Shown here: positions 6,526 to 60,628 of the stretch, one piece after another
How the letters are laid out: each line of letters begins with the position of its first letter
Numbering within the stretch: the first letter of the stretch is position 1
Assembly (NCBI GenBank): GCA_026874595.1
Contig: CM049308.1
Location: 94,851,624-94,915,623 of the forward strand
DNA: 64,000 bases
Direction: 5' to 3'
DNA from: Sipunculus nudus
Taxonomy: Eukaryota; Annelida; Sipuncula; Golfingiida; Sipunculidae
Position numbers and translations under genes: made by a program
The notes under the pieces: generated by a model
Databases searched by the model: none
Told to the model about the DNA's origin: nothing
What the model saw: only the letters and a program-made list of their open reading frames with translations

Positions 6526-7007
6526 AATAATTTTCACATTTTGCTAATGTCTGATTGATCAGGATGTAAGTGTTAAACATAAACTGAAATTTATGGTATT
6601 TTAAGTAAGATCTGCTTTACAAACTGATTTCTGGCAGTGTTACTGTTTGCTTGATGGTTGTATGGGAGGCAGGGGTGGTTATACTGGGAAGGCATGATAT
6701 AGATGTGGATTAGATTAATTCATTTTCAAGTACTTCTTTTAAATAAACTTCATTTAAAATATACAAAACTATTTCTCTCTGTTAAGGGATGTTTCACAAT
6801 AAATAAGTCAAAATTATCTGACTTACACAATCTTTATATTTATGAGTAACAAAATTGAAAGCCTGTATTTAACAATACAACACATCAGAATCAGACACAT
6901 ATCCAGGATCCCCAGTGATGATCAGGTGAAGGTCTGTCCCATCACACAGGATCACATTCTGTTAACAGCTGCCTTCAGTTTTGTTTAAGTAACAGGTTCT
7001 TGCTAAC
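6526..7007. other. Intron sequence, nothing recognised
   Basis: Short AT-rich spacer between the family A element and the 41-bp array. Confidence 0.5.
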
Positions 7008-9975
7008 AGATCTCTAAACCTACATCTCTTGTGATAAGTCACCATACCAGATCTCTAGACCTACATCTTTTGTGATACATCATCATACCAGATCTCTAGA
7101 CCTTCATTTCTTGTGATAAATCATCATACCAGGTCTCTAAATCTACATCTCTTGTAAGAAGTCATCAAACCAGATCTCTAGACCTACATCTGTTGTGATA
7201 AGTCATCATACAAGATCTCTAGACCTTCATCTTTTGTGATAAGTCATCATACCAGATCTCTGGACTTTCATCTCTTGTGATAAGTCATCATACAAGATCT
7301 CTAGACCTACATCTGTTGTGATAAGTCATCAAACCAGATCTCTAATCCTATACCTCTTGTGATAAGTCATCATACCAGATCTTTAAACCTGCATCTGTTG
7401 TGATAAGTCATAATACCAGATCTCTAGACCTACATCTTTTGTGGTAAGTCATCATACCAGATCTTTAGACCTTCATCTGTTGTGATAAGTCATCAAACTA
7501 GATCTCTAGACCTTCATCTTTTGTAATAAGTCATCATATAAGATCTCTAAACCTACATCTGTTGTGATAAGTTATCATACAAGATCTCTAGACCTACATC
7601 TTTTGTGATAAGTCATACCAGATCTCTAGACCTTCATCCCTTGTGATAAGTCATCATACAAGATCTCTAGACCTACATCTGTCGTGATAAGTCATCAAAC
7701 CAGATCTCTAGACCTTCACCTTTTGTGATAAGTCATCATACCAGATCTCTAGACCTACATCTGTTGTGATAAGTCATCAAACCAGATATCTATACCTTCA
7801 TCTTTTGTTATAAGTCATCATACAAGATCTCTAGCCCTACATCTGTTGTAATAAGTCATTATACAAGATCTCTAGCCCTACATCTGTTGTAATAAGTCAT
7901 TATACAAGATCTCTAGACCTACATCTTTTCTGATAAGTCATCATACAAGATCTCTAGACTTATGTCTGTTGTGATAAGTCATCAAACCAGATCTCTAGAC
8001 CTCCATCTCATGTGATAAGTCATGATACAAAAGTTCTCTAGACCTACATCTGTTGAGATAAGTCATCAAACCAGATCTCTAGGCCTTCATCTTTTGTGAT
8101 AAGTCATCATACCAGATCTCTAGACCTTCATCTCTTATTATTAGTCATCAAACCAGATCTCTAGACCTTCATCTTTTGTGATAAGTCATCATACAAGATC
8201 TCTAGACCTACATCTGATGAGATAAGTCATCAAACCAGATCTCTAGGTCTTCATCTTTTGTGATACGTCATCATACCAGATCTCTAGACCTTCATCTCTT
8301 GTGATAAGTCATCAAACCAGATCTCTAGACCTTTATCTTTTGTGATAAATCATCATACCAAATCTCTTGACCTACATCTGTTGTAATAAGTCATAATACC
8401 AGATCTCTAAGCCTTCATCTTTTGTGAAAAGTTATCATACCAGATCTCTAGACCTACATCTGTTGTGATAAGTCATCAAACCAGATCTCTAGACCATCAT
8501 CTTTTGTGATAAGTCATCATACCAGATCTCTAGACCATCTGTTGTGATAAATCATCATACCAGGTCTATAGATCTACATCTCTTGTAAGAAGTCATCATA
8601 CAGGATCTCTAGACCTACATCTGTTGTGATAAGTCATCATACAGGATCTCTAGACCTACATCTTTTGTGATAAGTCATCATACCAGATCTCTAATCCTAT
8701 ATCTCTTGTGATAAGTCATCATATCAGATCTTTAAACCTACATCTGTTGTGATAAGTCATCATACAAGATCTCTAGACCTACATCTTTTGTGATAAGTCA
8801 TCATACCAGATCTCTAGACCTACTTCTGTTGTGATAAGTCATCATACAAGATCTCTAGACCTTCATCTGTTGTGATAAGTCATCAAACCAGATCTCTTAT
8901 CCTATATCTCTTGTGATAAGTCAAAATACCAGATCTCTAGACCTACATCTTTTGTGGTAAGTCATCATACCAGATCTTTAGACCTACATCTGTTGTGATA
9001 AGTCATCAAACTAGATCTCTAGACCTTCATCTTTTGTAATAAGTCATCATATAAGATCTCTAAACCTACATCTGTTGTGATAAGTCATCATACAAGATCT
9101 CTAGACCTACATCTTTTGTGATAAGTCATACCAGATCTCTAGACCTTCATCTCTTGTGATAAGTCATCATACAAGATCTCTAGACCTACATCTGTCATGA
9201 CAAGTCATCAAACCAGATCTCTAGACCTTCACCTTTTGTGATAAGTCATCATACCAGATCTCTAGACCTACATCTGTTGTGATAAGTCATCAAACCAGAT
9301 CTCTATACCTTTATCTTTTGTTATAAGTAATCATACAAGATCTCTAGCCCTACATCTGTTGTGATAAGTCATTATACAAGATCTCTAGACCTACATCTTT
9401 TCTGATAAGTCATCATACAAGATCTCTAGACTTACGTCTGTTGAGATAAGTCATCAAACCAGATCTCTAGACCTTCATCTCATGTGATAAGTCATGATAC
9501 AAAAGTTCTCTAGACCTACATCTGTTGAGATAAGTCATCAAACCAGATCTCTAGGCCTTCATCTTTTGTGATAAGTCATCATACCAGATCTCTAGACCTT
9601 CATCTCTTATTATTAGTCATCAAACCAGATCTCTAGACCTTCATCTTTTGTGATAAGTCATCATACCAGATCTCTAGACCTACATCTGTTGTAGTAAGTC
9701 ATAATACCAGATCTCTAAGCCTTCATCTTTTGTGAAAAGTCATCATACCAGATCTCTAGACCTACATCTGTTGTAATAAGTCATAATACCAGATCTCTAA
9801 GCCTTCATCTTTTGTGAAAAGTCATCATTCCAGATCTCTAGACCTTCATCTTTTGTGATAAGTCATCATACCAGATCTCTAGACCTTCATCTTTTGTGAT
9901 AAGTCATCATACCAGATCTCTAGACCTTCATCTTTTGTGATAAGTCAAACCAGATCTCTAGACCTACATATTTTG
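7008..9975. repeat. 41-bp minisatellite, about 72 copies
   Basis: Tandem units of 41 bp, each containing AGATCTCTAGACC, a CATCT-YTTGTGATAAG segment and TCATCAT/AAAC. It lies in the TTLL5 intron between exons a and b. Rare variants recur in the same order about 1.5 kb apart (for example gtggtaag at 7441 and 8954; aagttctcta at 8031 and 9503), showing a segmental duplication inside the array. The unit is not a multiple of three and carries no ORF. Units directly abut, so it is not a CRISPR-like array. Confidence 0.95.
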
Positions 9976-10832: not shown

Positions 10833-11160
10833 CTAAATCAGGTGAGATCAGAGGAGCATTGGTACAGGGCATACCAGACAACAGCGACTCCACACAGACA
10901 ACAAGCGTCAAGAGAGATACAAGTAAAGAATCAACTCCAAATCCAGAGAAAACTTCACAGTCCAACCAACCCAAGCCCAAGTCAGAATCCTCTCCTGACA
11001 AAGAGGCAAAAAAAACCACAGTAATACCTGTCAATCATGAAGCACCAGCCACAGAGAAGGCCCCGCCCACTCCACAACCAGTCAAACCCAGGGAAGCCAC
11101 AGTACCCCCGATGCCCAAATATGACGTGGTGGAGTTACTACAGAAGGGTCGCACAATGAG
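10833..11160 (+). CDS. TTLL5: TTLL5-like exon c (328 nt)
   Basis: Acceptor ctgtacag, donor ATGAG/gtcagt. It encodes a low-complexity, proline/serine/threonine/lysine-rich linker (DNSDSTQTTS…, PKPKSESSPDKEAKK, APPTPQPVKP) and then the ordered tail KYDVVELLQKGRTM. The linker is probably disordered. An alternative acceptor nine bases downstream (10842) would remove three codons in frame (NAGNAG-like choice). Confidence 0.8.
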
Positions 11161-12834: not shown

Positions 12835-12949
12835 TAAGGTACAGGCCCGGTTTGCCTTCGCCACATACTTGACGCGGGTTCAGCATCGTCTGATGTCAGA
12901 GACAGGATGCCATGAACAGGAGGACATTGATGCGGCCAATGAACAAATG
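12835..12949 (+). CDS. TTLL5: TTLL5-like exon d (115 nt)
   Basis: Acceptor tttttacag, donor AAATG/gtacat. It encodes SKVQARFAFATYLTRVQHRL then MSETGCHEQEDIDAANEQM, a conserved helical segment of the TTLL5 C-terminal part. It enters in phase 2 (AG/T gives Ser) and ends in phase 0. Confidence 0.9.
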
Positions 12950-13566: not shown

Positions 13567-13713
13567 GATCTGGTGCTACGGTTCTTAAAACGAGCAGCCG
13601 GTAACCTTCAGCAACCCTTCAAGGTCATTGTCCCTAGTCGCAAGCTGCCAATCAATGACCGACGTCGTATTCTGGCCAAGCAGCTTGGAGATTTTGTCCA
13701 TATTTATAACAAG
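13567..13713 (+). CDS. TTLL5: TTLL5-like exon e (49 codons)
   Basis: Acceptor gttttag, donor AACAAG/gtcagc; phase 0 at both ends. It contains the most diagnostic segment, [11 protein letters not shown], then [19 protein letters not shown] and GDFVHIYNK. Vertebrate TTLL5 has a near-identical block in the region described as a cofactor-interaction domain. Confidence 0.95.
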
Positions 13714-15798: not shown

Positions 15799-16019
15799 TG
15801 AGAGTGAGTTGGAAGAGGTGCTCACCACATATACTAAGCTCAACAAATCTGCCAGCATCTTTCTTGGCAGCAACTCTAAGTCTACTTATGAACACAAAGC
15901 TCCACCCCCTCAGTCAGCATCCAGCATTTCTAGCGATACTGGTCTGGCTCGGAGGAAAGACGTACCCATCGACAGACTCGAGGAACCACCTAAAATCACC
16001 AGCCATCCTGACGGTCACG
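15799..16019 (+). CDS. TTLL5: TTLL5-like exon g (221 nt)
   Basis: Acceptor gttttcag, donor GGTCACG/gtaaac. It begins NESELEEVLTTYTKLNKSAS and continues IFLGSNSKSTYEHK, strongly TTLL5-like, then a Ser/Pro-rich stretch and RKDVPIDRLEEPPKITSHPD. It ends in phase 1. Confidence 0.95.
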
Positions 16020-16591: not shown

Positions 16592-18826
16592 TCAGTGCCT
16601 GTGTCACCCTCTGTGTACATCTCAGTGTTGACGGCTGTTTACTGTGTCTTCAGTGCCTGTGATCTCTCTGTACCTCTCCATGTTGACAGCTGTTTACTGT
16701 GTCTTCAGTGCCTGTGTGACAGTGTCCTCTCTGTGTACCTCTCCATGTTGACAGCTGTTTACTGTGTCTTCAGTGCCTATGTCACACTCTGTGTACTGCT
16801 TCATGTTGACATGTTTACTGTGTCCTCAATGCCTGTGATCTCTCTGTACCTCTCTGTGTTGACAGCTGTTAACTGTGTCTTCAGTGCCTGTGTGACAGTG
16901 TCCTCTCTGTGTACCTCTCCATGTTGACAGCTGGTTACTGTGTCTTCAGTGCCTATGTCAACCTCTGTGTACCTCTCCATGTTGACAGCTGGTTACTGTG
17001 TCTTCAGTGCCTATGTCAACCTCTGTGTACCTCTCCATGTTGATGGCTGTTTACTGTGTCTTCAGTGCCTGTGTTCTCTCTGTACCTCTCTATGTTGACA
17101 GCTGTTTACTGTGTCTTTAGTGCCTGTGTCCTCTCTGTGTACCTCTTCATGTTGACAGCTGTTGAATTTGTCTTCAGTGCCTGTATCATCCTCTGTGTAC
17201 AATTCCATGTTGATGGCTGTTGTCTTCAGTGCTTGTGTCACCCTCTGTGTACCCCTCCATGTTGACAGCTGTTTACTGTGTCTTCAATGCCTGTGTGAAA
17301 GTGTCCTCTCTGTGTACCTCTCCATGTTGACAGCTGTTTACTGTGTCTTCAGTGTCTGTGTCCTCTGTGTACCTCTCGATGTTGACAGCTGTTTACTGTG
17401 TCTTCAGTGCCTGTGTTCTCTCTGTACCTCTCCATGTTGACAGCTGGTTACTGTGTCTTCAGTATCTGTGTCCTCTGTGTACCTCTCCATGTTGACAGCT
17501 GTTTACTGTGTCTTCAGTGCCTGTGTTCTCTCTGTACCTCTCCATGTTGACAGCTGTTTACTGTGTCTTCAGTGCCTATGTCACCCTCTGTGTACCTCTC
17601 CATGTTGACATCCGTTTACTGTGTCTTCAGTGCCTGTGTTCTCTCTGTACCTCTCTATGTTGACAGCTGTTAACAGTGTCTTCAGTGCCTCTGTGACAGT
17701 GTCCTCTCTGTGTACCTCTCCATGTGTTGACAGCTGGTTACTGTGTCTTCAGTGCCTGTGTCCTCTGTGTACCTCTCCATGTTGACAGCTGTTTACTGTG
17801 TCTTCAGTGCCTGTGTTCTCTGTGTACCTCTCCATGTTGAAAGCTGTTTACTGTGTCTTCAGTGCCTGTGTCACCCTCTGTGTACCTCTCCATGTTGACA
17901 GCTGTTTACTGTGTCATAGTTGCCTGTGGCCCCTCTGTTCACCTCTCCATGTTGATGGCTGTTTACTGTGTTGTCATTGTCTGTGTACCTCTCCATGTGT
18001 TGACAGCTGGTTACTGTGTCATCATTGCCTGTGTCCCCTCTGTTTACCTCTCCATGTTGATGGATGTTTACTGTGTCTTCATTGCCTGTGTTCCCATCTG
18101 TGTACCGCTCCATGTTGACAGCTGTTTACTGTGTCTTCAGTGCCTTGGTCCCCCTCTATTTACCTCTCCATGTTGACAACTGTATACTGTGTCATAGTTG
18201 CCTGTGGCCCCTCTGTTCACCTCTCCATGTTGAGGGCTGTTTACTGTGTTGTCATTGTCTGTGTACCTCTCCATGTGTTGACAGCTGGTTACTGTGTCTT
18301 CAGTGCCTGTGTCACCCTCTGTGTCCCTCTCCATGTTGACAGCTGTTTACTGTGTCATCATTGCCTGTGTCCCCTCTGTTTACCTCTCCATGTTGATGGA
18401 TGTTTACTGTGTCTTCAGTGCCTGTGTCACCCTCTGTGTCCCTCTCCATGTTGACAGCTGTTTACTGTGTCTTCAGAGCCTTGGTCCCCCTCTGTGTACC
18501 TCTCCATGTTGACAGCTGTATACTGTGTCGTCATTGCCTGTGTTCCCATCTGTGTACCTCTCCGTGTTGAAAGCTGTTTACTATGTCTTCAAAGCCTGTG
18601 TCACCCTCTGTGTACCTCTCCATGTTGACGGCTGTTTACTGTGTCTTCATTGCCTGTGTTTTCTCTGTACCTCTCCATGTTGACGGCTGTATACTGTGAT
18701 TTCAGTGCCTGTGTCACCCTCTGTGTACCTCTCCATGTTGACGGCTGTTTACTGTGTCTTCATTGCCTGTTTTCTCTGTACCTCTCCATGTTGACGGCTG
18801 TTTACTGTGTCTTCAGTGCCTGCAGC
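16592..18826 (+). repeat. ~55-bp minisatellite carrying splice-acceptor copies, about 40 units
   Basis: Units vary from about 48 to 61 bp and contain TGTGTCTTCAGTGCCTGTG, a CTCTGTGTACCTCTCCATG segment and TTGACAGCTGTTTAC. The last unit runs without a break into the acceptor of TTLL5 exon h (tgtgtcttcag/TGCCTGCAG). The array therefore consists of repeated copies of an intron 3' end. Variants replace CTTCAG with CATCATTG, CATAGTTG or GTCATTG in the 17.9-18.6 kb part, and the group of variants itself recurs (17.9-18.1 and 18.2-18.4 kb), suggesting block duplication. Confidence 0.95.
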
Positions 18827-19047
18827 AAAGAATAACTTCCATTCAGAGCCAAATCAGGACTTAGTATTGGATCAAGCATCATCTCACATGGATGGGCGCC
18901 ACCTGGGGATGCCAGGCGGAACCATGGCACCCTCTAACAGCTACCAAAGTAACAACATGTCCTCTTATGCCCGTGCTGTCGCCATCTATAGTGCTAAGCC
19001 TAACATGCTTCAAGCTAGACCTCGTTCTGCCAGTCAAAAAGCTTCAG
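18817..19047 (+). CDS. TTLL5: TTLL5-like exon h (231 nt)
   Basis: The acceptor lies in the last minisatellite unit (tgtgtcttcag at 18816); a second AG at 18825 would drop three codons in frame. Donor GCTTCAG/gtaacc. It encodes VPAAKNNFHSEPNQDLVLDQ, then SYARAVAIYSAKPNMLQARP and RSASQKAS. Phase 1 in and out. The product looks disordered apart from the ARAVAIYSAK helix. Confidence 0.85.
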
Positions 19048-24372: not shown

Positions 24373-24455
24373 TTTTAGTTATGACGGCAGTGGTTTTGGT
24401 GTTTGTCAGTGCTTTCCAGCTTTAGTTATGACGGCAGTGGTTTTGGTGTTTGTCT
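24373..24455. repeat. Short direct duplication just before exon j
   Basis: TTTAGTTATGACGGCAGTGG and the following TTTTGGTGTTTGTC occur twice, about 47 bp apart, immediately upstream of the acceptor of exon j. Confidence 0.8.
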
Positions 24456-24474: not shown

Positions 24475-25267
24475 AAGCCAGCACTATGACGGAGGTACAG
24501 GAGGAGGTGGTGATGAACGCGGCTCTCCAGAGGATCGCCAGCAGACAGCAGCAGAGGCAGTATGCAGCTAAAGCTTCAGGACTGTTACAGTCAGAGCAGT
24601 CTGCTGGTGACCCTGTGGACCATCATCAGCCCAGTCGTTCCTGGGCTGGACTTCATGACTCACAAAGTACCGCCCTGAGCAGCATCCCACCCCCGTCTGA
24701 GGCCTTCACCATGTATAATTCTCAGGAGAGTAAGACCCCACATCAAAACCTTTATAACAGTCAAATGTTTGTCAACAGCCGTCACTCCCACCCAGCAGAG
24801 AGCCGTGATTCACATGGCACCATATTGGTGGATGCCAGTGGTGGGCTGAGTCACGTCAGTAACGGCACAAACAACAGTAATAAAAAACCAGTCACCAGTG
24901 CCAGTGAGACGTTTGAGAACTTCGTTGCTGACACAGCTCCATTTTATGATCATACAGCTGTGCATTCTTACAGCACAGCATCAGGTGCAGCACCTTCTGG
25001 CAGCACGTACAGCCCAAGTAAAGGCAGCACTGATTACCTGCTGGCTCAGCAGCAGCAGTTCATCAGACACCAGAACCTGATGGAGCAGAGCCGGGCTCTG
25101 TTACAGCAGAGCAAGGCCAAGCACCAGGCCATGGTAGCACAAGCCCACGCAGCTCAGAAGGTCACACCAGAGACAGAGCCAGCCACAGCAATGCAAAAAT
25201 ACTTACCAAAACCACCACCGAAACCCTCGTCAGCCAAGAAACCTGTTGGAGGACACAGACTCGTCAG
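24475..25267 (+). CDS. TTLL5: TTLL5-like exon j (793 nt, large Q/S-rich exon)
   Basis: Acceptor tattttccag, donor GTCAG/gtaaag. It opens with EASTMTEVQEEVVMNAALQR and IASRQQQRQYAAKASGLL (helical, glutamine-rich). A long Ser/His/Asn-rich disordered middle follows, then a second coiled, Q-rich helix (LLAQQQQFIRHQNLMEQSRA, LLQQSKAKHQAMVAQAHAAQ) and the tail PKPPPKPSSAKKPVGGHRLV. The paired helices look like a protein-interaction module. Phase 1 in, phase 2 out. Confidence 0.9.
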
Positions 25268-28986: not shown

Positions 28987-29334
28987 CTATTGAATTATTC
29001 ATTATGACTTGACTTGTTCTTCATGTCCATCACATGCATGTCACATGGTACAGACGTTGTAGCAGGATCCCTGATCTGAGTTATTAAACTCCCCCCGACT
29101 TAATACAAGATAATACAGGTTCCCAAATATATGACAACAGTATTAACATTGTCACACCTGCAAATTTTTTATTCGGGGAGTCCAGGAAGCATGTGGGGAC
29201 AAAAGTGCGTATTTATGCCTTGAAATATTTGACCTTGTGTCAGGAAAATCTGTGAGCAGAATGAAAAGAACATACATGTAAGAACAAAACTATACAACAT
29301 TACTCCATTGACTACAGCTTGCACTTGTCTCTTA

Positions 29335-31400
29335 CACTCTAAAACACAGAATGGACTCGTGTCTTCTATTCTACAACAGAATGTACTTGTCTCTTCTATT
29401 CCACAACAGAATGTACTCGTCTCTTCTATTCCACAATAAAATGAGCTTGTCTCTTCCACTCTACATTAGAACATACTTGTTTCATCCACTTCACAACAGA
29501 TCTTCAACAATGTACTGGTCTCTTCCACTCAACAAGACTTACTTGTCCACTCCACAAGAGAATGTATATGTGACATGTCTCATCCATTCCACAAAGGGAT
29601 TTGCTTGTCTCTTCTTCCCCATAAGATAATGTATGTCTCTTCCACTCCACAACAGAAGGAATCTGTCTCGTCCACTCTACAATGGAAAGTAACTTCTAAT
29701 TCACTGGAAACAAACTTGTCTCATCTATTTCATAACAGAATGTACTTGTCTTTTCCACAACAGAATGTATTTGTCTTCCTCTCCACAACAGAATGTACTT
29801 GTCTCATCCACTCCAAAAGAGAATGTACTTGTCTCTTCAACTCCACAACAGAATGTGCTTGGCTTATCCACTCCACAACAAATATACATGTCTAATCCGT
29901 TCCACAACAGAGTGTACTTGTCTTATCCACTCCACAACAGAATGTACTTGTCTCATCCACTCCACAACAGATTGTCCTTGTCTCATCCACCCCACAACAG
30001 AATGTATTTGTCTCGTTCACCCGACAACAGAATAAACTTGTCTCTTCCACTCCAAAACAGAATGTACTTGTCTCTTCAACTCCACAAAAGAATGTGCTTT
30101 GCTCATCCACTCCACAACAAATGTACATCTCTGATCCATTCCACAACAGAGTGTACATGTCTCTTTCAGTCCCACATCAGAATGTACTTGTCTCTTCAAC
30201 TCCACAACAGAATGTGCTTGGCTCATCTACTCCACAACAAATGTTCATGTCTGATCATTTCCACAACAGAGTGTACTTGTCTCTTTCAGTCCCACAACAG
30301 AATGTGCTTGTCTCTTCAACCTGACAACAGAATGTGCTTGGCTCATACACTCCACAACAAATGTACATGTCTGATCATTTCCACAACAGAGTGTACTTGT
30401 CTCTTTCAGTCCCAAAACAGAATGTGCTTGTCTCTTCAACTCCACAACAGAATGTGCTTGGCTCATCCACTCCACAACAAATGTACATGTCTGATCCATT
30501 CCACAACAGAATGTACTTGTCTCTTCAACTCCACAACAGATTGTGCTTGTCTTATCCACTCCACAACAAATATACATGTCTGATCCATTCCACAACAGAG
30601 TGTACTTGTCTCTTCAACTCCACAACAGAATGTGTTTGTCTCATCCACTCCACAACAAATATGCATGTCTGATCCATTCCACAACAGAGTGTACTTGTCT
30701 CTTTCAGTCCCACAACAGACTGTGCTTGTCTCTTTCACTCCCACAACAGAATGTGCTTGTCTCTTTCACCCCCACAACAGAATTTGCTTGTCTCTTTCAC
30801 TCCCACAACAGGATGTGCTTGTCTTTTTCAGTCCCACAACAGAATGTACTTGTCTCATCCACTCCACAACAGATTGTACTTGTCTCTTCAACTCCACAAC
30901 AGAATGTGCTTGGCTCATCCACTCCACAACAAATGTACATGTCTGATCCATTCCACAACAGAGTGTACTTGTCTCTTTCAGTCCCACAACAGAATGTGCT
31001 TGTCTCTTTCACTCCCACAACAGAATGTGCTTGTCTCTTTCACTCCCACAACAGAATGTGCTTTTCTTTTTCAGTCCCACAACAGAATGTACTTGTCTCA
31101 TCCACTCCACAACAGATTGTACTTGTCTCATCCACCCCACAACAGAATGTATTTGTCTCGTTCACCCGACAACAAAATAAACTTGTCTCTTCCTCTCAAA
31201 AACAGAATGTACTTGTCTCTTCAACTCCACAACAGAATGTGCTTGGCTCATCTATTCCTCAACAGAATGTGGTTGTCTCTTCAACTCCACAAGAGATTGT
31301 ACTTGTCTTTTTTGCCCTACAAAAGAATATGTGTCTATTCAACTACAACAACACAATGTACTGTTCTCTTTCATTCCACTTATTGTTTCTTGTACCTACA
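29335..31400. repeat. 30-bp minisatellite, about 68 copies
   Basis: The unit is close to CCACAACAGAATGTACTTGT plus CTCTTCCACT. Because 30 is divisible by three, long open frames run in several frames on both strands (up to 297 codons). Their products are simple 10-residue repeats (LSHPLHNRMY-type; CCGVEETSTF-type on the - strand), so they are repeat artefacts. A 120-bp higher-order unit is visible where ATGTACATGTCTGATC variants recur at about 30120, 30240, 30360 and 30480. Confidence 0.95.
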
Positions 31401-37558: not shown

Positions 37559-40531
37559 ATTTTTTTTTTTTATTCAGACAAAACATATACAATACAAATA
37601 CATATACTCAGAAAACATTACAAAGTCAAAGCATTACAAATTTAAATACATGTATCTTGGAAAAAGAGCAGCATTATATATATCTGACAAAATGCAACAA
37701 TGACAAAATATAAAAAAAGAAGAGGGGGAAATAAAAAGGAAAAAAAAAAGCACAAAAAGCACATCAAAGGAAGAAAAAAAAAAAAAAAAAAAAAACTTAA
37801 AAAAATAAAGGATGCATATTCCTATATACATGGATACACACATATATTCTACATATACACATACATATTATATGCTTAGATATCCAAATATAAACCGAAT
37901 TAGAATTTAAAGATACCCCATTTTTCATTAAGTACCTCCAGTTCGTCTTTTTTTTCTGCAATATGTTTTTCAATTTCATAAATCTTCTTTGCATAATTGA
38001 TACCATCCAATGCTCTTGGTTTCACTTCTTTGCATCTACATGTATACAAGTATTTTTTAAAGATAAGCAATATGAGATTCAATATATCATATTCCTTGAC
38101 ACCCAATATCACTAGCTTTAAGTCCAATATTATTGTTTGATCTCTCATTTTCTTGTTAAACCAACAGGCTAATTCGGACCAATATCCTTGAGTAATAGGG
38201 CATTCCCAAAACAAATGTGTCAATGATTCTCTTCCTTCTTCACAAAAAGAACAATTTTCCGTATCTTTGAAACCAATTTTGAATAAAAATGTATTTGTTG
38301 TTAATATTCTATGTATCAAATTAAACTGAAATATCCTTAGGGTTGTAGACTGAGTAAGCTTCACTATATGCAAAAAGGAATTAAGGATATATTTTTTGGA
38401 GTCATATTCAATATTTAGGTCCCTTGTCCATTTTCTTAATATTCTTTCGGGTTCTACGTATAGAGGTCTGACCAGTTCATTGTATGCAGTTTTTGTCACA
38501 TTTTTCACCTTAAATAATAGGGAAAATTTACTTATATAATTGTCATCTTCATTTGTATGCAATAAAATTTCTTTCCACTCTCTCGGAATCGAATCCAATA
38601 ATCCTCTATATTCAAGAATATTAACTTTTTTAACCCTCAGGCTGATTTCTTCATATGTAAGAAATCTCTTAATATCATCTCCTGTTAATAAATCAGTTAA
38701 GCAGTAAATTCCTGCATTTATCCAGTTTTTATAAAATACTGGTTTATTATCCACCCGAATATGTGAGTTCAACCAGATATTTTGATTACCAATTTCTGTT
38801 ACTCCTTTGACTTGGTCTTTATAATTGTATGCACACCATGATTGTAGAACATCTTTCCAGAATGTATTTGTGTTTACATAACTATACCATACATCCTCTT
38901 TGGCCAAATTACACTTAAAAAAATAATCACCTCCTCTGATCATACTAAGTATGTCTTGTTTATATTCTTCGGTGTCCTTCTTTAATAGTAGTCTTCTGAC
39001 CCAAGCGACTTTCAAAGATGTTATATAAGTTCTAGGATGGACCATATTAAGGCCTCCATTGTCATAAGATGAAATTAAAGATTTCCTTTTAATTTTATCT
39101 GGCTTGTTGGACCATATGAATCTAAACAGTCTCTGTTCAACCATATTTATAAAATCATCATCAGGTGTAGGTAATACTGAAAATAAATATGAAAGCTGTG
39201 ATAACCCAAAAGTTTTAAGAATTGTAATTTTTCCAAGTAATGTAAGATTTCGATATGACCAAACATTAAGCACACTGTTTAATTTTTCCATGGCAGGGAG
39301 AAAATTCAGGTTTTTCAAATTATTTGCCTCTGGGGTTACCTTTATTCCCAGTACATCAACTGGGCCATATGACCATTTCAGATTCAAATTTTCAATTTCC
39401 TCTTTCACTGATCTATCGTAAGTCATGAGCAATGGCATCACTGTTGTCTTATTTAAATTTATCACAAGACCTGAAATTTTGGAGAAATTCATAAAAACTT
39501 TTAGTGCTTCTTTAACTGATGACACATCTTTCAAGGTAAGAACAGTGTCATCTGCATATTGTGTAAGTTTTCCTCCAGGCATGTAACTGTTAATTAGATT
39601 ATTGTTCCTGATAGTTAATGCTAAACATTCTGCACATAAAATAAACAGGTATGGGGAGAGAGGACACCCTTGTCTAACTCCTCTTGAAATACTAAAGTAA
39701 GCAGACATCCACCCATTGTTTATGATACAACTGCTAATGTCATTATACAAAATACTGCACCATTTTTGTATAACAGAGCTTATGTTGAAATATTTCAAAG
39801 TTTGCTCAAGAAAATTCCATTCCAATTTATCATAAGCTTTTTCAAAGTCTATTGTCATAAGTAGCCCATTTAATTTTGTTCTCTTTGCATGATAAATATT
39901 ATTTAAAACTTTATTTATGTTTTCTCCAATATACCTGTTTTTAAGAAATCCTGTTTGGTTGTGGTGTATTATGTGTGGCAAAATCTTTTTCATCCTTGAA
40001 GCTATTACCCCAGCAATAATTTTATAGTCAACATTCATCAAAGAAATTGGTCGCCAATTTTTTATTTCTGTATTATCTTTACCTTTTTTAGGGATCAAAC
40101 TTATGACACCTTGTTTTTGGGATACTGAAAGTTCACCACCATCATAAATATACCTTACTGCTTGCAGGAAATATTGTTTTAGTTGAGTCCAAAATTTTTT
40201 GTAGAATTCGGCAGGTATACCATCGTTCCCAGGTGTTTTGTTATTTTTTTGAGACAACAACACATCTGTTATTTCTTTTTCACTGATTAATGTATTCATT
40301 AACATGTTTTGTTCTTTTGAAACTTTTTGAATTGGCTGTACCTGTGCTAGGAATTCTGTGATACTGTGTGCATTTCCTTTTGAAAAGTTTGATTCATATA
40401 AGTCCTTATAAAATTCTTTAGCTGTTTTTATTATTTCCTTTTGATTGTCTGACAAAGACCCATCTGCAAGCCTTAATTTGTGTATCTTTTTTGCATTGTA
40501 GTTTCTTTTTTCCAAATTGAGAAAATATTTT
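37533..40531 (-). mobile_element. 5'-truncated L1/Tx1-type LINE, recent insertion
   Basis: About 3.0 kb on the - strand. A long T run on the + strand (37531-37573) is its poly-A tail. Both sides carry the same 14-bp direct repeat ACGAATTTGAACTT (37519-37532 and 40532-40545), a target site duplication. The 5' half (ORF1 and endonuclease) is missing, as usual for incomplete target-primed reverse transcription. The remaining reverse-transcriptase frame has no stop or frameshift, which suggests a young copy. Confidence 0.92.
37900..40530 (-). CDS. LINE ORF2 fragment: reverse transcriptase with C-terminal zinc knuckle
   Basis: About 876 codons, from KYFLNLEKRNY at the truncation point to the stop at 37900. 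The open frame continues 27 codons into flanking DNA, but that part is not LINE. It contains NDGIPAEFYKKFW, then the RT core with NWRPISLMNVDYKI, motif A DFEKAYD (catalytic Asp, near 39850), SRGVRQGCPLSPYLF and the YADD active site (near 39548-39559). An L1-type zinc knuckle CSFCEEGRESLTHLFWEC (C-x2-C-x7-H-x4-C) is near 38200-38255. It would copy its RNA at nicked target DNA, but this copy lacks the endonuclease and promoter, so it cannot move on its own. The clade (L1/Tx1) is inferred from the RT motifs and knuckle. Confidence 0.92.
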   Translation of the reverse strand, partial: KYFLNLEKRNYNAKKIHKLRLADGSLSDNQKEIIKTAKEFYKDLYESNFSKGNAHSITEFLAQVQPIQKVSKEQNMLMNTLISEKEITDVLLSQKNNKTPGNDGIPAEFYKKFWTQLKQYFLQAVRYIYDGGELSVSQKQGVISLIPKKGKDNTEIKNWRPISLMNVDYKIIAGVIASRMKKILPHIIHHNQTGFLKNRYIGENINKVLNNIYHAKRTKLNGLLMTIDFEKAYDKLEWNFLEQTLKYFNISSVIQKWCSILYNDISSCIINNGWMSAYFSISRGVRQGCPLSPYLFILCAECLALTIRNNNLINSYMPGGKLTQYADDTVLTLKDVSSVKEALKVFMNFSKISGLVINLNKTTVMPLLMTYDRSVKEEIENLNLKWSYGPVDVLGIKVTPEANNLKNLNFLPAMEKLNSVLNVWSYRNLTLLGKITILKTFGLSQLSYLFSVLPTPDDDFINMVEQRLFRFIWSNKPDKIKRKSLISSYDNGGLNMVHPRTYITSLKVAWVRRLLLKKDTEEYKQDILSMIRGGDYFFKCNLAKEDVWYSYVNTNTFWKDVLQSWCAYNYKDQVKGVTEIGNQNIWLNSHIRVDNKPVFYKNWINAGIYCLTDLLTGDDIKRFLTYEEISLRVKKVNILEYRGLLDSIPREWKEILLHTNEDDNYISKFSLLFKVKNVTKTAYNELVRPLYVEPERILRKWTRDLNIEYDSKKYILNSFLHIVKLTQSTTLRIFQFNLIHRILTTNTFLFKIGFKDTENCSFCEEGRESLTHLFWECPITQGYWSELACWFNKKMRDQTIILDLKLVILGVKEYDILNLILLIFKKYLYTCRCKEVKPRALDGINYAKKIYEIEKHIAEKKDELEVLNEKWGIFKF

Positions 40532-41091
40532 ACGAATTTGAACTTAGTCATTTGGCCAAGTAAGCATACTGACTTAGTAATCTCAGAAATGACAGAAGCT
40601 AGCATAACCAAGTATTGTGCAAATGATGGTCACATGACTCATATCTGAAGTTGCAGATTTCGTGGTGCCACCTACATTGACCTGTTATTTTCGGCAAAAA
40701 CCTCACAAATTTAGACCCTTTTAGCTTAAAATGTTTATGATGAAACTGTCAAGTTGAATCGTTCAATTTTTCAAAAGAACTATCCTAGGACATGGTTCTT
40801 TTAATCATATCAGAATAGACTGAGTTTGTTTGACTTTTGGTTGAGTCATGAAAAGCTTAAGTTGGTCTTATGGCCATTATTATGTCTATTTCAAATTGAG
40901 AACTGCAATAGTGTTCTTCTACAGAATTATTGTTTCAGTTATAACTTCTGTAACATTGCACAAAAATTATTCTTGGGTGGCCTTTGTTTAAGTTTACTTG
41001 AATGCTTTTTGGCAGAATCATTGGACCTTTAACAATGAAAGGACTGCAACTTTTATTATTCTAGATATTTTGATAAAAAAGTTTAAGATTA

Positions 41092-57411: not shown

Positions 57412-58090
57412 ATGTCAGTCTCCGGAAAAAAAGGTGAAAGGTCAACCTCTAGGGACCAACCAGGCGCTACGTCCGTTGATCAGACCACAAGGTCGGTTGA
57501 GGAAGTCCAAGAAGGTGTACCGCACAAGAAACAGGAGTTCAAGAAGACATCAGCGGCAGAGAGTCCGTGCGGTGGGCGGGTGGTTATCACCTACGACAGT
57601 CCGTCAGATGATGGCAAATCACTAACTAGTCACAGAGCGCGTGACCGCTGGAACACCATCAGAGCCAACCTCTTGCCGCTTGCCCACATGGCTCAGCCTT
57701 CAGATGCCGTCATCAGCCGGGCTGGTCAGTCCACCGGCTCGCCATTCCAGAAAGACGTTTTACGCGTCCCCGGCACGGTAACACACAGCGACTCGGAGGA
57801 TTCAGGGAGGGACACCCCACTACCACGATCTAACACTGTCCTGGACACCGGACGGAAAAACAGCAAAACGTCCGTAACGTCCAGAACGTCCGAATTAGAT
57901 CCTCTACAGAACAGTCACGGACGGACACAGCGGGAGGCGCAGGAGGAGGGTCACGACCAGGACTCGCCCTCACCCGGACCCTCTCAAGGACCCTCCACCG
58001 GAGAGTCCTTCCTCAGCACAGCCATACCGTTCCTTCCCGTGGGGACAGCAGCATTCTGCCTTTTCATCAACATCTTCCTGCCCGGTATAG
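57412..58090 (+). CDS. stum: Stum/Spec3-family membrane protein, first coding exon
   Basis: 226 codons plus one base, from ATG 57412 (G at -3, first ATG in this frame) to donor GTATAG/gttcgt. Residues 1 to ~198 are hydrophilic and Ser/Thr/Gly/Gln-rich (SKTSVTSRTSELD, SPSPGPSQGPSTGES), probably a disordered cytoplasmic N-tail. Residues ~201-226 read AIPFLPVGTAAFCLFINIF then LPGIG, the start of the stum/Spec3 domain, in which a helix of the form IP-x-P-x5-C-x2-N-x2-PG-x-G is conserved. Drosophila stum is needed for mechanical sensing in proprioceptive neurons; sea-urchin Spec3 is a ciliary ectoderm protein. The long N-tail resembles Drosophila stum more than the short vertebrate STUM. The following exons (rest of TM1, TM2) are not in the window, so the gene is partial. 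Confidence 0.8.
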
Positions 58091-58560
58091 GTTCGTATCA
58101 TCAACATTTTCCTGTCCGGTACAGTTTAGGACATTTTGTACCGTATTGTCACCATCTTAATTCCTTCCAGGTATGAGTTCGTATCATCAACATTTTCCTG
58201 TCCGGTGCAGTTTAGGACATTTTGTACAGTATTGTCACCATCTTAATTCCTTCCAGGTATAGGTTCGTATCATCAACATTTTCCTGTCCGGTACAGTTTA
58301 GGACATTTTGTACCGTATTGTCACCATCTTAATTCCTTCCAGGTATAGGTTCGTATCATCAACATCTTCCTGTCCGGTACAGTTTAGGACATTTTGTACC
58401 GTATTGTCACCATCTTAATTCCTTCCAGGTATAGGTTCGTATCATCAACATCTTCCTGTCCGGTACAGTTTAGGACATTTTGTACCGTATTGTCACCATC
58501 TTAATTCCTTCCAGGTATAGGTTCGTATCATCAATATCTTCCTGCTAGTATAGGTTCGTA
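58091..58560 (+). repeat. 86-bp tandem array starting at the stum-exon splice donor
   Basis: GTTCGTATCATCAA recurs at 58091, 58177, 58263, 58349, 58435 and 58521, exactly every 86 bp, with a shorter seventh start near 58553. Each unit contains a near copy of the last 25 exon bases (ATCAACATCTTCCTG…GGTATAG) and the acceptor-like tract TTAATTCCTTCCAG followed by GTATAG. Units are almost identical, so the expansion is recent. Confidence 0.95.
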
Positions 58561-60628
58561 TCATCCTTCCATAATGTACCTATTTACTCAAGTAGTCATG
58601 TCACAAGCCTTAATATCTCTCCCTTTGTATCTTCCTTCCAAATTTAGAATTACATGTATATATTACTTTTACCGGGTAATATGATTTATTTTACTGGACT
58701 TAGCCTCTGTGTTTTAGGTACCGGTTCGTATATTGTCCTCAGAAAAATATATAATTTAAATTTAGCCATATATCTTCCACTTTATTAGTATTCCGTTTTT
58801 TTTTTCATAGAATTTAAACTTAATAAATATTAAGACCGTTGGCTTTGTGTTTAAACAACCTTATACTCATACACTTATAAAAATTCGTTTCATTTATAAT
58901 TTATATGTTTACATACCTCCATAGTCCGATTACAGACTATATTGATTGATCAGTTAATAGAAGTAGAGATTATAGCAGAGATGCTTTAATTTGAGATCAA
59001 ATAAAGAATAAGACTTCACATTCTTGACATTATGTTTTTAGATTCATTGGTTTCCTGTACAGTTAATCTAACAATGTTTGGCATCTTGTCTGAAGTAGAT
59101 TTATTGGTGTATGGTGACATAATCATATATACCATACCTGGCTTCGCAAACCAATTAAAACACATGGAAATAGTGAGGTTTAAAGTCTATAATAACTCTA
59201 AAAAGTTCCAGCTTTCTGCAATAAAGAAAAGAAACGGTTCCATGTTTTTTTTTTCTATGGTGGAAAGGTCAAAATCAATTCCAGACACCAAGTGATTTTA
59301 TTTTCAATTGTTGTTATAAATTCGATACATTGGCGTGATTTGACTTTGGTCCCAACAGTGAGGGTTTCTGTCCATTGATAGCTGGACACTATTTTAAAAT
59401 GATAGTATTACTGTCAACGCTATTCTCCATTTTATTGCATGAGGATGCTTTTTTGAAATTTAAATGTTTATCTCACTTGAAAGGAAACAGAACGGTCGCG
59501 ACTAATCAAACTTGATTTGGAGAATTCTTAAAAAACCGCAATGAAACATTTAACCATCTGTATGCAGCCATCTAAATGTCTTCCTGGCAAAATAAAGCTT
59601 AAACTTAGATAGAAATTACCGCTAAATTACTGTTTAACATTACTAAGGGATTCACCTGTCAATTGTAATAACAGCCATGCAGTGAAGAAGAGAAACATGT
59701 CATCCAATTCAAATTTCATAAAACACCCCGAGTTGAGTAACACAAATATAAACGTTATCATCGTGACAACACTGATACCAACCGAAAGTCAACTAGGTAC
59801 TTCCGGTGGGACTTCTGTATCCATCTGTAAATTATATGTTTATTATTTAAAATTCTTGCTCCGCTACATAATAACATAAATCACTTTAAAACTGCAAATG
59901 TCATTCTTAACTGCAAATTAAAGAAAATACCTGTATCGTATGCACACTATATTCACTATTTTTTGCAGTCTTGAACCTTTATCTAATGTCATCATATACA
60001 TTTTGAATGGTCATTTGGAAGTTTTTAGCGTTCACATTTAAACCGATTCTAACCTCTTTCCCTTGAAAGGCGCTGGGTTCATCATATTTTTTCCCATGCT
60101 CTCTACCGGCAGCTCCTGATATTTTCACGGCCACCACGTCGTTCCGAAGGTCATGGTTCTTGGGTCCGCATTCTGTATTGCTCAATAGGTACTTTGTCTA
60201 GATAAGTTATCTTTCAGGTGGCATCTCCCTCATGACCGTAGCTCTGTGGAGCTAAAAATACAAAAAAATACAAAACACTTAATAATGGATGCGTATTGCC
60301 GTCCATTCAATATACAAGCTGCTGAATGTTTAATCATGCCTACAAAAGAAAATGGTTGTTCTACACGATGACGAGGCTAAAATCCGTCTGTGTTAGCTTC
60401 TGAGTCGTTCTCTGCACGTCCTTCGAGTATCAGTCCCGCGACAACAAAATGCCTAGGTTGATCGGTTTCTTCATAACAACATTGAGACTTGCCCGCGGCT
60501 CACGACTGTTCCATCATAATAAAGGTGTTTTCCTTCAGAGTAATTTCAAAGCTTCAGCACGCGATCTCATCCGTCATAGCTGTAGCTACATGCACGTATA
60601 TGTAAAAATCACTGATATGATTTTATGG
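58561..60628. other. Probable stum intron; no exon recognised
   Basis: AT-rich. I searched for a continuation of the stum domain (a second hydrophobic segment opening in phase 1) and found none. One - strand open stretch (about 59979-60185) is listed separately. Confidence 0.45.
59979..60197 (-). CDS. Possible exon or gene fragment, unrecognised
   Basis: An open - strand stretch of ~70 codons ending in TAG, without an ATG start, less AT-rich than its surroundings. It reads DVVAVKISGAAGREHGKK, then PSAFQGKEVRIGLNVNAK and FQMTIQNVYDDIR. The composition is coding-like (balanced, few Leu/Phe/Ile runs), but no family is recognised. An upstream acceptor is unclear, so it may be a decayed gene piece or chance. 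Confidence 0.25.
   Translation of the reverse strand, partial: TKYLLSNTECGPKNHDLRNDVVAVKISGAAGREHGKKYDEPSAFQGKEVRIGLNVNAKNFQMTIQNVYDDIR

Follow-up and report, generated by a model that had tools for sequence, protein, structure and literature searches.

How is the true 3' splice site of an exon found when the intron before it ends in many near-copies of that site, and how does such an intron arise? Both questions are raised by a minisatellite in the window (the whole stretch of 64,000 nt of Sipunculus nudus DNA analyzed here), which lies in an intron of a gene assigned below to TTLL5. The likely splice site of the exon after this intron is the last of the many near-copies. We consider it probable that the minisatellite is a tandem array including a splice boundary, in which an acceptor-bearing segment of ~58 bp was duplicated intronwards and the real acceptor is the copy at the 3' edge.

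A minisatellite array ends at a TTLL5 exon

Hand-joined exons from the window match PDB 9phh chain A, a fusion of TTLL5 with RPGR, in two stretches with an E value of 2.9e-12, which supports TTLL5 as the predicted identity of the gene holding the array. The exon that immediately precedes the array-bearing intron (ESELEEVLTTYTKLNKSASIFLG) falls within one of the two stretches. A shorter query made of upstream exons gave an E value of only 0.066 against the same chain, and Pfam gave no match for exons 15799-16019, 18817-19047 and 24475-25267 joined together. Besides these three, exons at 10833-11160, 12835-12949 and 13567-13713 were recognized as parts of TTLL5. Exon 15799-16019 (+, 221 nt), located upstream of the array, leaves phase 1. 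Exon 18817-19047 (+, 231 nt, 77 residues), located after it, has phase 1 at both ends; with an alternative start at 18826 it is 222 nt long. The next recognized exon is 24475-25267 (+), and the phases of the three exons join. The phases between 13713 and 15799 do not close directly, and at least one exon is absent from the gene model there.

Two other repeats were noticed along the same gene. A 34-nt exact direct repeat with 47-nt spacing (24374-24454) ends 20 nt before the acceptor of TTLL5 exon 24475 and amounts to a two-copy duplication. A 41-bp minisatellite of ~72 copies (7007-9975) is found upstream of TTLL5 exon 10833 and touches none of the known borders.

The array in question occupies 16592-18822 on the + strand (~2.2 kb) and consists of 39 units and one short partial, with a unit of ~58 bp and a higher-order period of ~278 bp. 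Tandem Repeats Finder reported a period of 278 with 7.8 copies over 16592-18822 and a period of 58 with 37.0 copies over 16722-18822. Wraparound alignment to one consensus unit gave 40 rows, i.e., the 39 units, of which the last is truncated at the exon, and a partial of 17 nt. A search with the 27-nt unit core returned 33 matches at three or fewer mismatches within the 64-kb window, all in the array, and 0 in 100 shuffles. These three analyses bear out a tandem array ending at the start of a TTLL5 exon, as stated in the preliminary description, which had placed the array end at 18826; the array stops at 18822. A dispersed element is disfavored as the source of the unit, the 27-nt core having no match outside the array within the 64-kb window.

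The last unit (18772-18822, +) carries the likely splice acceptor of the TTLL5 exon and a candidate branch-point motif, TTGAC (18791-18795, +), in which the A at 18794 is 22 nt before the last base of the intron. The core TGTTGA is mismatch-free in 39/39 units and its TTGA usually reads TTGAC; the permutation fraction for this invariant run, 0.054, is not convincing. Most units carry a further AG two bases 3' of the candidate branch point.

The true acceptor and its copies

The TTTACTGTGTCTTCAG/TGCCTG of the last unit abuts the open exon, and the phase of this exon fits the flanking exons on both sides. There are two possible acceptors in one frame, TTCAG/TGCC at 18816 and TGCAG/CAAA at 18825 (9 nt downstream). 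All splice-site scores given here come from an approximate matrix, on which 18825 scores 7.74 vs 6.31 for 18816; the acceptor of TTLL5 exon 15799 scores 4.12. The 18816 site is of middling strength, since 6.4% of the 3389 AGs in the window score 6.31 or more. According to the available part of one study (PMC1431707), AGs less than ~12 nt apart compete, so both 18816 and 18825 may be used, giving the join VPAAK or AK. With 18816 as the acceptor the array reaches 6 nt into the exon, the largest overlap possible; with 18825 there is no overlap, the whole array is intronic and the unit contains no exon sequence. The last unit had been described as the acceptor of the TTLL5 exon. Its contact with a phase-fitting exon agrees with this assignment, but 18825 is equally possible and scores higher.

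The preliminary description had also counted ~40 copies of the acceptor and placed many near-identical decoys upstream of the true one. An AG at the acceptor column is kept in 29 of the 40 aligned rows (two of the 29 only as a shifted CATAG) and is absent in 11, so that the figure of ~40 holds for the rows and not for the intact acceptors. Among the 63 AGs of the array, 25 (true site included) match the true site over 16 nt with no more than 5 mismatches. Identity to the true site over 22 nt (16 + 6 nt) is found in 10 of 40 units, the true one included. With so many near and identical copies, the true site is not distinguishable by local sequence. The decoys are indeed numerous: 21 array AGs reach a score of 6.31 or more on the approximate matrix (true site included, 18825 left out), and many copies equal the true acceptor locally. 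Joining the upstream exon to the remaining 62 array AGs one by one introduced a stop codon in 62/62 cases; for the 27 acceptor-like upstream AGs listed, the stop falls inside the array.

An AG-poor stretch before the true acceptor

Introns with a distant branch point and an AG exclusion zone are described, in the available part of PMC1431707, as having an AG-free stretch, with choice of the first AG and with AGs that lie very close to the branch point being passed over. In the TTLL5 intron an AG-free stretch (18706-18814, +) lies between the array AG at 18704-18705 and the acceptor AG at 18815-18816. The preceding AG lies 111 nt from the true site, vs 9 to 76 nt in 23 of 24 other acceptor-like copies; the decoy at 18705 likewise has 111 nt. 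A value of 19 nt accounts for most short distances and corresponds to the AG two bases past the candidate branch point. The contrast between 111 and 9 to 76 nt is therefore overstated, because most short distances end at an AG that the bypass rule would ignore. The largest AG gap in the array (115 nt, 18005-18120) is not at the true acceptor.

The final 277 nt contain 3 AGs, vs 8.4 per 277 nt in the remainder of the array; the next gap upstream likewise measures 111 nt. No other 222-nt stretch of the array is poorer in AG than the one preceding the true AG; 20 of 2001 overlapping windows are equally poor, in one block just before 18795-18814, with the length of 222 nt picked after the gaps were seen. 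Unit columns were then counted, with the 17-nt partial unit left out and columns 50-57 excluded from the core. In the last 17 units mismatches occupy 16/66 cells of the four AG columns vs 42/770 cells of the remaining core columns; the corresponding counts for the first 22 units are 6/87 and 42/1005. A column-pair permutation gave 0.015 for the last 17 units and 0.29 for the first 22, values to be read with a 17/22 split and a test chosen post hoc and with units related by descent.

A simple purge of AGs near the exon was rejected, or at least weakened, as a reading of these counts: the ACGG form, which lacks the other AG of the unit, is carried by the first full unit and by the final four. 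Since it is found at both array edges, ACGG may be an older state kept there and not a loss. The G of the acceptor AG shows 5 parsimony changes, tied for the most among 58 columns on a weak tree of 39 short units, and the CAG-to-CAT change looks derived. It was concluded that the AG-poverty before the true site fits AG exclusion or AG scanning, but with few mutational events behind it.

Proposed origin of the array and choice of the edge copy

We propose that a segment of ~58 bp, made of the branch-point-like TTGAC, a pyrimidine-containing stretch and the acceptor AG, was tandemly duplicated toward the intron side, probably via replication slippage or unequal exchange. The edge copy would most likely be chosen as the sole copy adjoining the real exon with its real donor. 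Under first-AG scanning, branch points in the last two units would meet no other AG before the true acceptor. The upstream copies would be mostly silent, and their occasional use would give a message with a premature stop. Growth of the array by duplication of the exon border, as earlier suggested, is unproven for TTLL5 because the unit holds at most 6 exon nt (none if the acceptor is 18825). Border copying is much clearer in a second boundary-spanning array of the window.

This second array (58066-58565, +) is located ~39 kb downstream of the TTLL5 array. It begins within the last coding bases of a Spec3-like exon, whose protein presumably resembles the Stum protein. Its ~86-bp units reproduce the final 25 coding nt of that exon along with its donor, and these 25 nt recur 5 more times with 2 to 4 substitutions each. 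The exon protein matched Pfam Spec3 (PF15795) with an E value of 0.00036 and 21.4 bits, below the curated cut-off of 27, over profile positions 2-25 of 85. Five CTTCCAG/GT sites in the array have a good acceptor score of 9.94 and a moderate to good donor score (5.70 at four sites and 8.70 at one); the CCAG/GT sites resemble recursive splice sites. The occurrence of boundary arrays in two genes within a single window suggests that such structures may be common in the genome, and a genome-wide count would be worthwhile.

The best-surviving alternative, which we regard as possible but clearly less probable, is that an ordinary intronic minisatellite came to lie beside the exon by coincidence. Its spread would have been halted at the exon by selection, the acceptor would be TGCAG/CA (18825), the TTCAG copies would be incidental and the array would have no effect on splicing. 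This explanation partly overlaps with the proposed boundary duplication. It is favored by the 18825 AG, which is in frame and scores higher on the rough matrix (7.74 vs 6.31), and by the density of arrays. Long arrays (9 after merging) cover ~20% of the 64-kb window, and with about one fifth of the window in arrays, contact between an array and a border is by itself only modestly surprising. On the other side, first-AG scanning from the branch point of the last unit would meet 18816 first under the rule in the available part of PMC1431707, though AGs so close compete. Two array ends also lie near borders, a modest excess over random placement (P 0.02). With ten long arrays and 13 known borders, 0.085 end-border coincidences are expected within 10 nt (P of at least one = 0.08) and 0.207 within 25 nt (P of at least two = 0.019); arrays below 150 bp were left out, and the array and border lists were drawn up after the finding.

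Other repeats of the window include a 30/60-bp minisatellite at 29323-31379. Both of its strands have long frames free of stops, reaching 313 codons on the + strand, and it is probably a non-coding repeat. On the minus strand, 37900-40629 contains a LINE-type ORF, a 909-codon stop-to-stop frame with matches to RVT_1 (E 1.3e-38) and zf-RVT.

Possible effects on splicing

Skipping of exon 18817-19047 keeps an open frame because the exon is symmetric (231 nt, or 222 nt with the second acceptor). Under the proposed boundary duplication, any effect of the array on splicing is a prediction, and the most likely effect of its length, by analogy with ABCA7, would be more skipping of this exon from longer alleles. 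Such length tuning has a measured human precedent in ABCA7 (PMC5954066).

A functional rheostat goes further. Copy number would determine what share of the TTLL5 transcripts lacks the 231-nt exon or contains a premature stop, and the isoform ratio would differ by allele. The in-frame skipping and the stops after 62/62 upstream AGs are consistent with this proposal, and the length of the ABCA7 VNTR is correlated with the skipping of exon 19 and with reduced expression (PMC5954066). In the same study, however, the isoform retaining a single unit is unchanged with length, and the lancelet arrays called mirages are reported not to disturb splicing (available parts of PMC3087553 and PMC3902484). 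We consider a rheostat unlikely. More doubtful still is a splicing device shaped by selection, in which exclusion of AGs from the final ~220 nt lets the edge copy win, the copies upstream serve as a sink that depends on array length, each decoy giving a premature stop, longer arrays lead to in-frame skipping of the 77-residue exon, and copy number sets the isoform ratio between individuals.

Pseudo-exons or recursive splicing inside the array are very improbable, in spite of the many complete acceptor-like sites: among 325 array GTs the highest donor score is 2.91, whereas five TTLL5 donors score 5.82, 7.83, 8.05, 8.65 and 8.66, and AGGT (AG directly followed by GT, as needed by recursive sites) occurs 0 times in the TTLL5 array, for which recursive splicing was rejected. 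Since the array has no donor as good as the scored TTLL5 donors, the internal pseudo-exons suggested in the preliminary description find little support, with the proviso that 14.5% of the 4024 window GTs score above 2.91 and that the margin is smaller to the real Spec3-like donor, which scores just 3.82.

The TTLL5 array can be viewed as a natural experiment in splice-site choice. One intron carries 10 acceptors identical over 22 nt and 15 close copies, and only the last of them adjoins the exon. This one locus would let branch-point scanning, exon definition and nonsense decay be separated.

Comparison with known boundary arrays

In the Creative Commons PMC literature, no such array in TTLL5 is described among the matches listed, as judged by title and start of abstract. 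Internal tandem repeats at exon-intron borders alter gene structure in human paralogues (PMC2812944); unlike the TTLL5 array, those are variable repeats that may form novel introns. The AG-free stretch before the true TTLL5 acceptor recalls the AG exclusion zones of introns with distant branch points. Those introns, in the available part of PMC1431707, have normal AG frequency beyond the zone, whereas in TTLL5 the AG-free stretch consists of repeat units and is matched in length by the next AG gap upstream.

The closest counterparts are found in lancelets. The excerpts available of PMC3087553 and PMC3902484 describe mirages as minisatellite-like duplications of intron-exon borders with unstable length, which reportedly leave splicing undisturbed. 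The genes concerned are the lancelet globins BflGb6 and BflGb9 and Adh3 (PMC3087553, same excerpt), and lancelet PGBD5 was likened to mirages, as was TnC, which is cited there along with Adh (PMC3902484, same excerpt). According to both excerpts, many but not all units keep AG/GT, the edges of a cluster escape homogenization and the units range from 10 to ~160 bp. The TTLL5 array is likewise in direct contact with an exon border (array end 18822, border 18816 or 18825) and keeps the splice dinucleotide in many but not all units (AG in 29/40 rows). A mirage unit includes exon sequence; the TTLL5 unit has 6 nt (acceptor 18816) or none (18825), and the Spec3-like array has 25 coding nt. The TTLL5 array differs from mirages in holding at most 6 exon nt per unit, in the gene concerned and in a copy number above the 3 and 6 units reported for BflGb6 in the excerpted text.

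In human ABCA7, the intron 18 VNTR has a 25-bp unit that starts with the donor GT; the true site is the edge copy, and retention of one unit leads to a frameshift (PMC5954066, available text). The position of the true splice site as the edge copy of a tandem array is shared with TTLL5. The ABCA7 repeat, as described there, is on the donor side with a length effect measured in human, whereas the TTLL5 array is on the acceptor side and its length effect is a prediction. Splice-site minisatellites of this kind are thus already known from lancelet genes and human ABCA7, and the TTLL5 array is a further example, located on the acceptor side and present in many copies.
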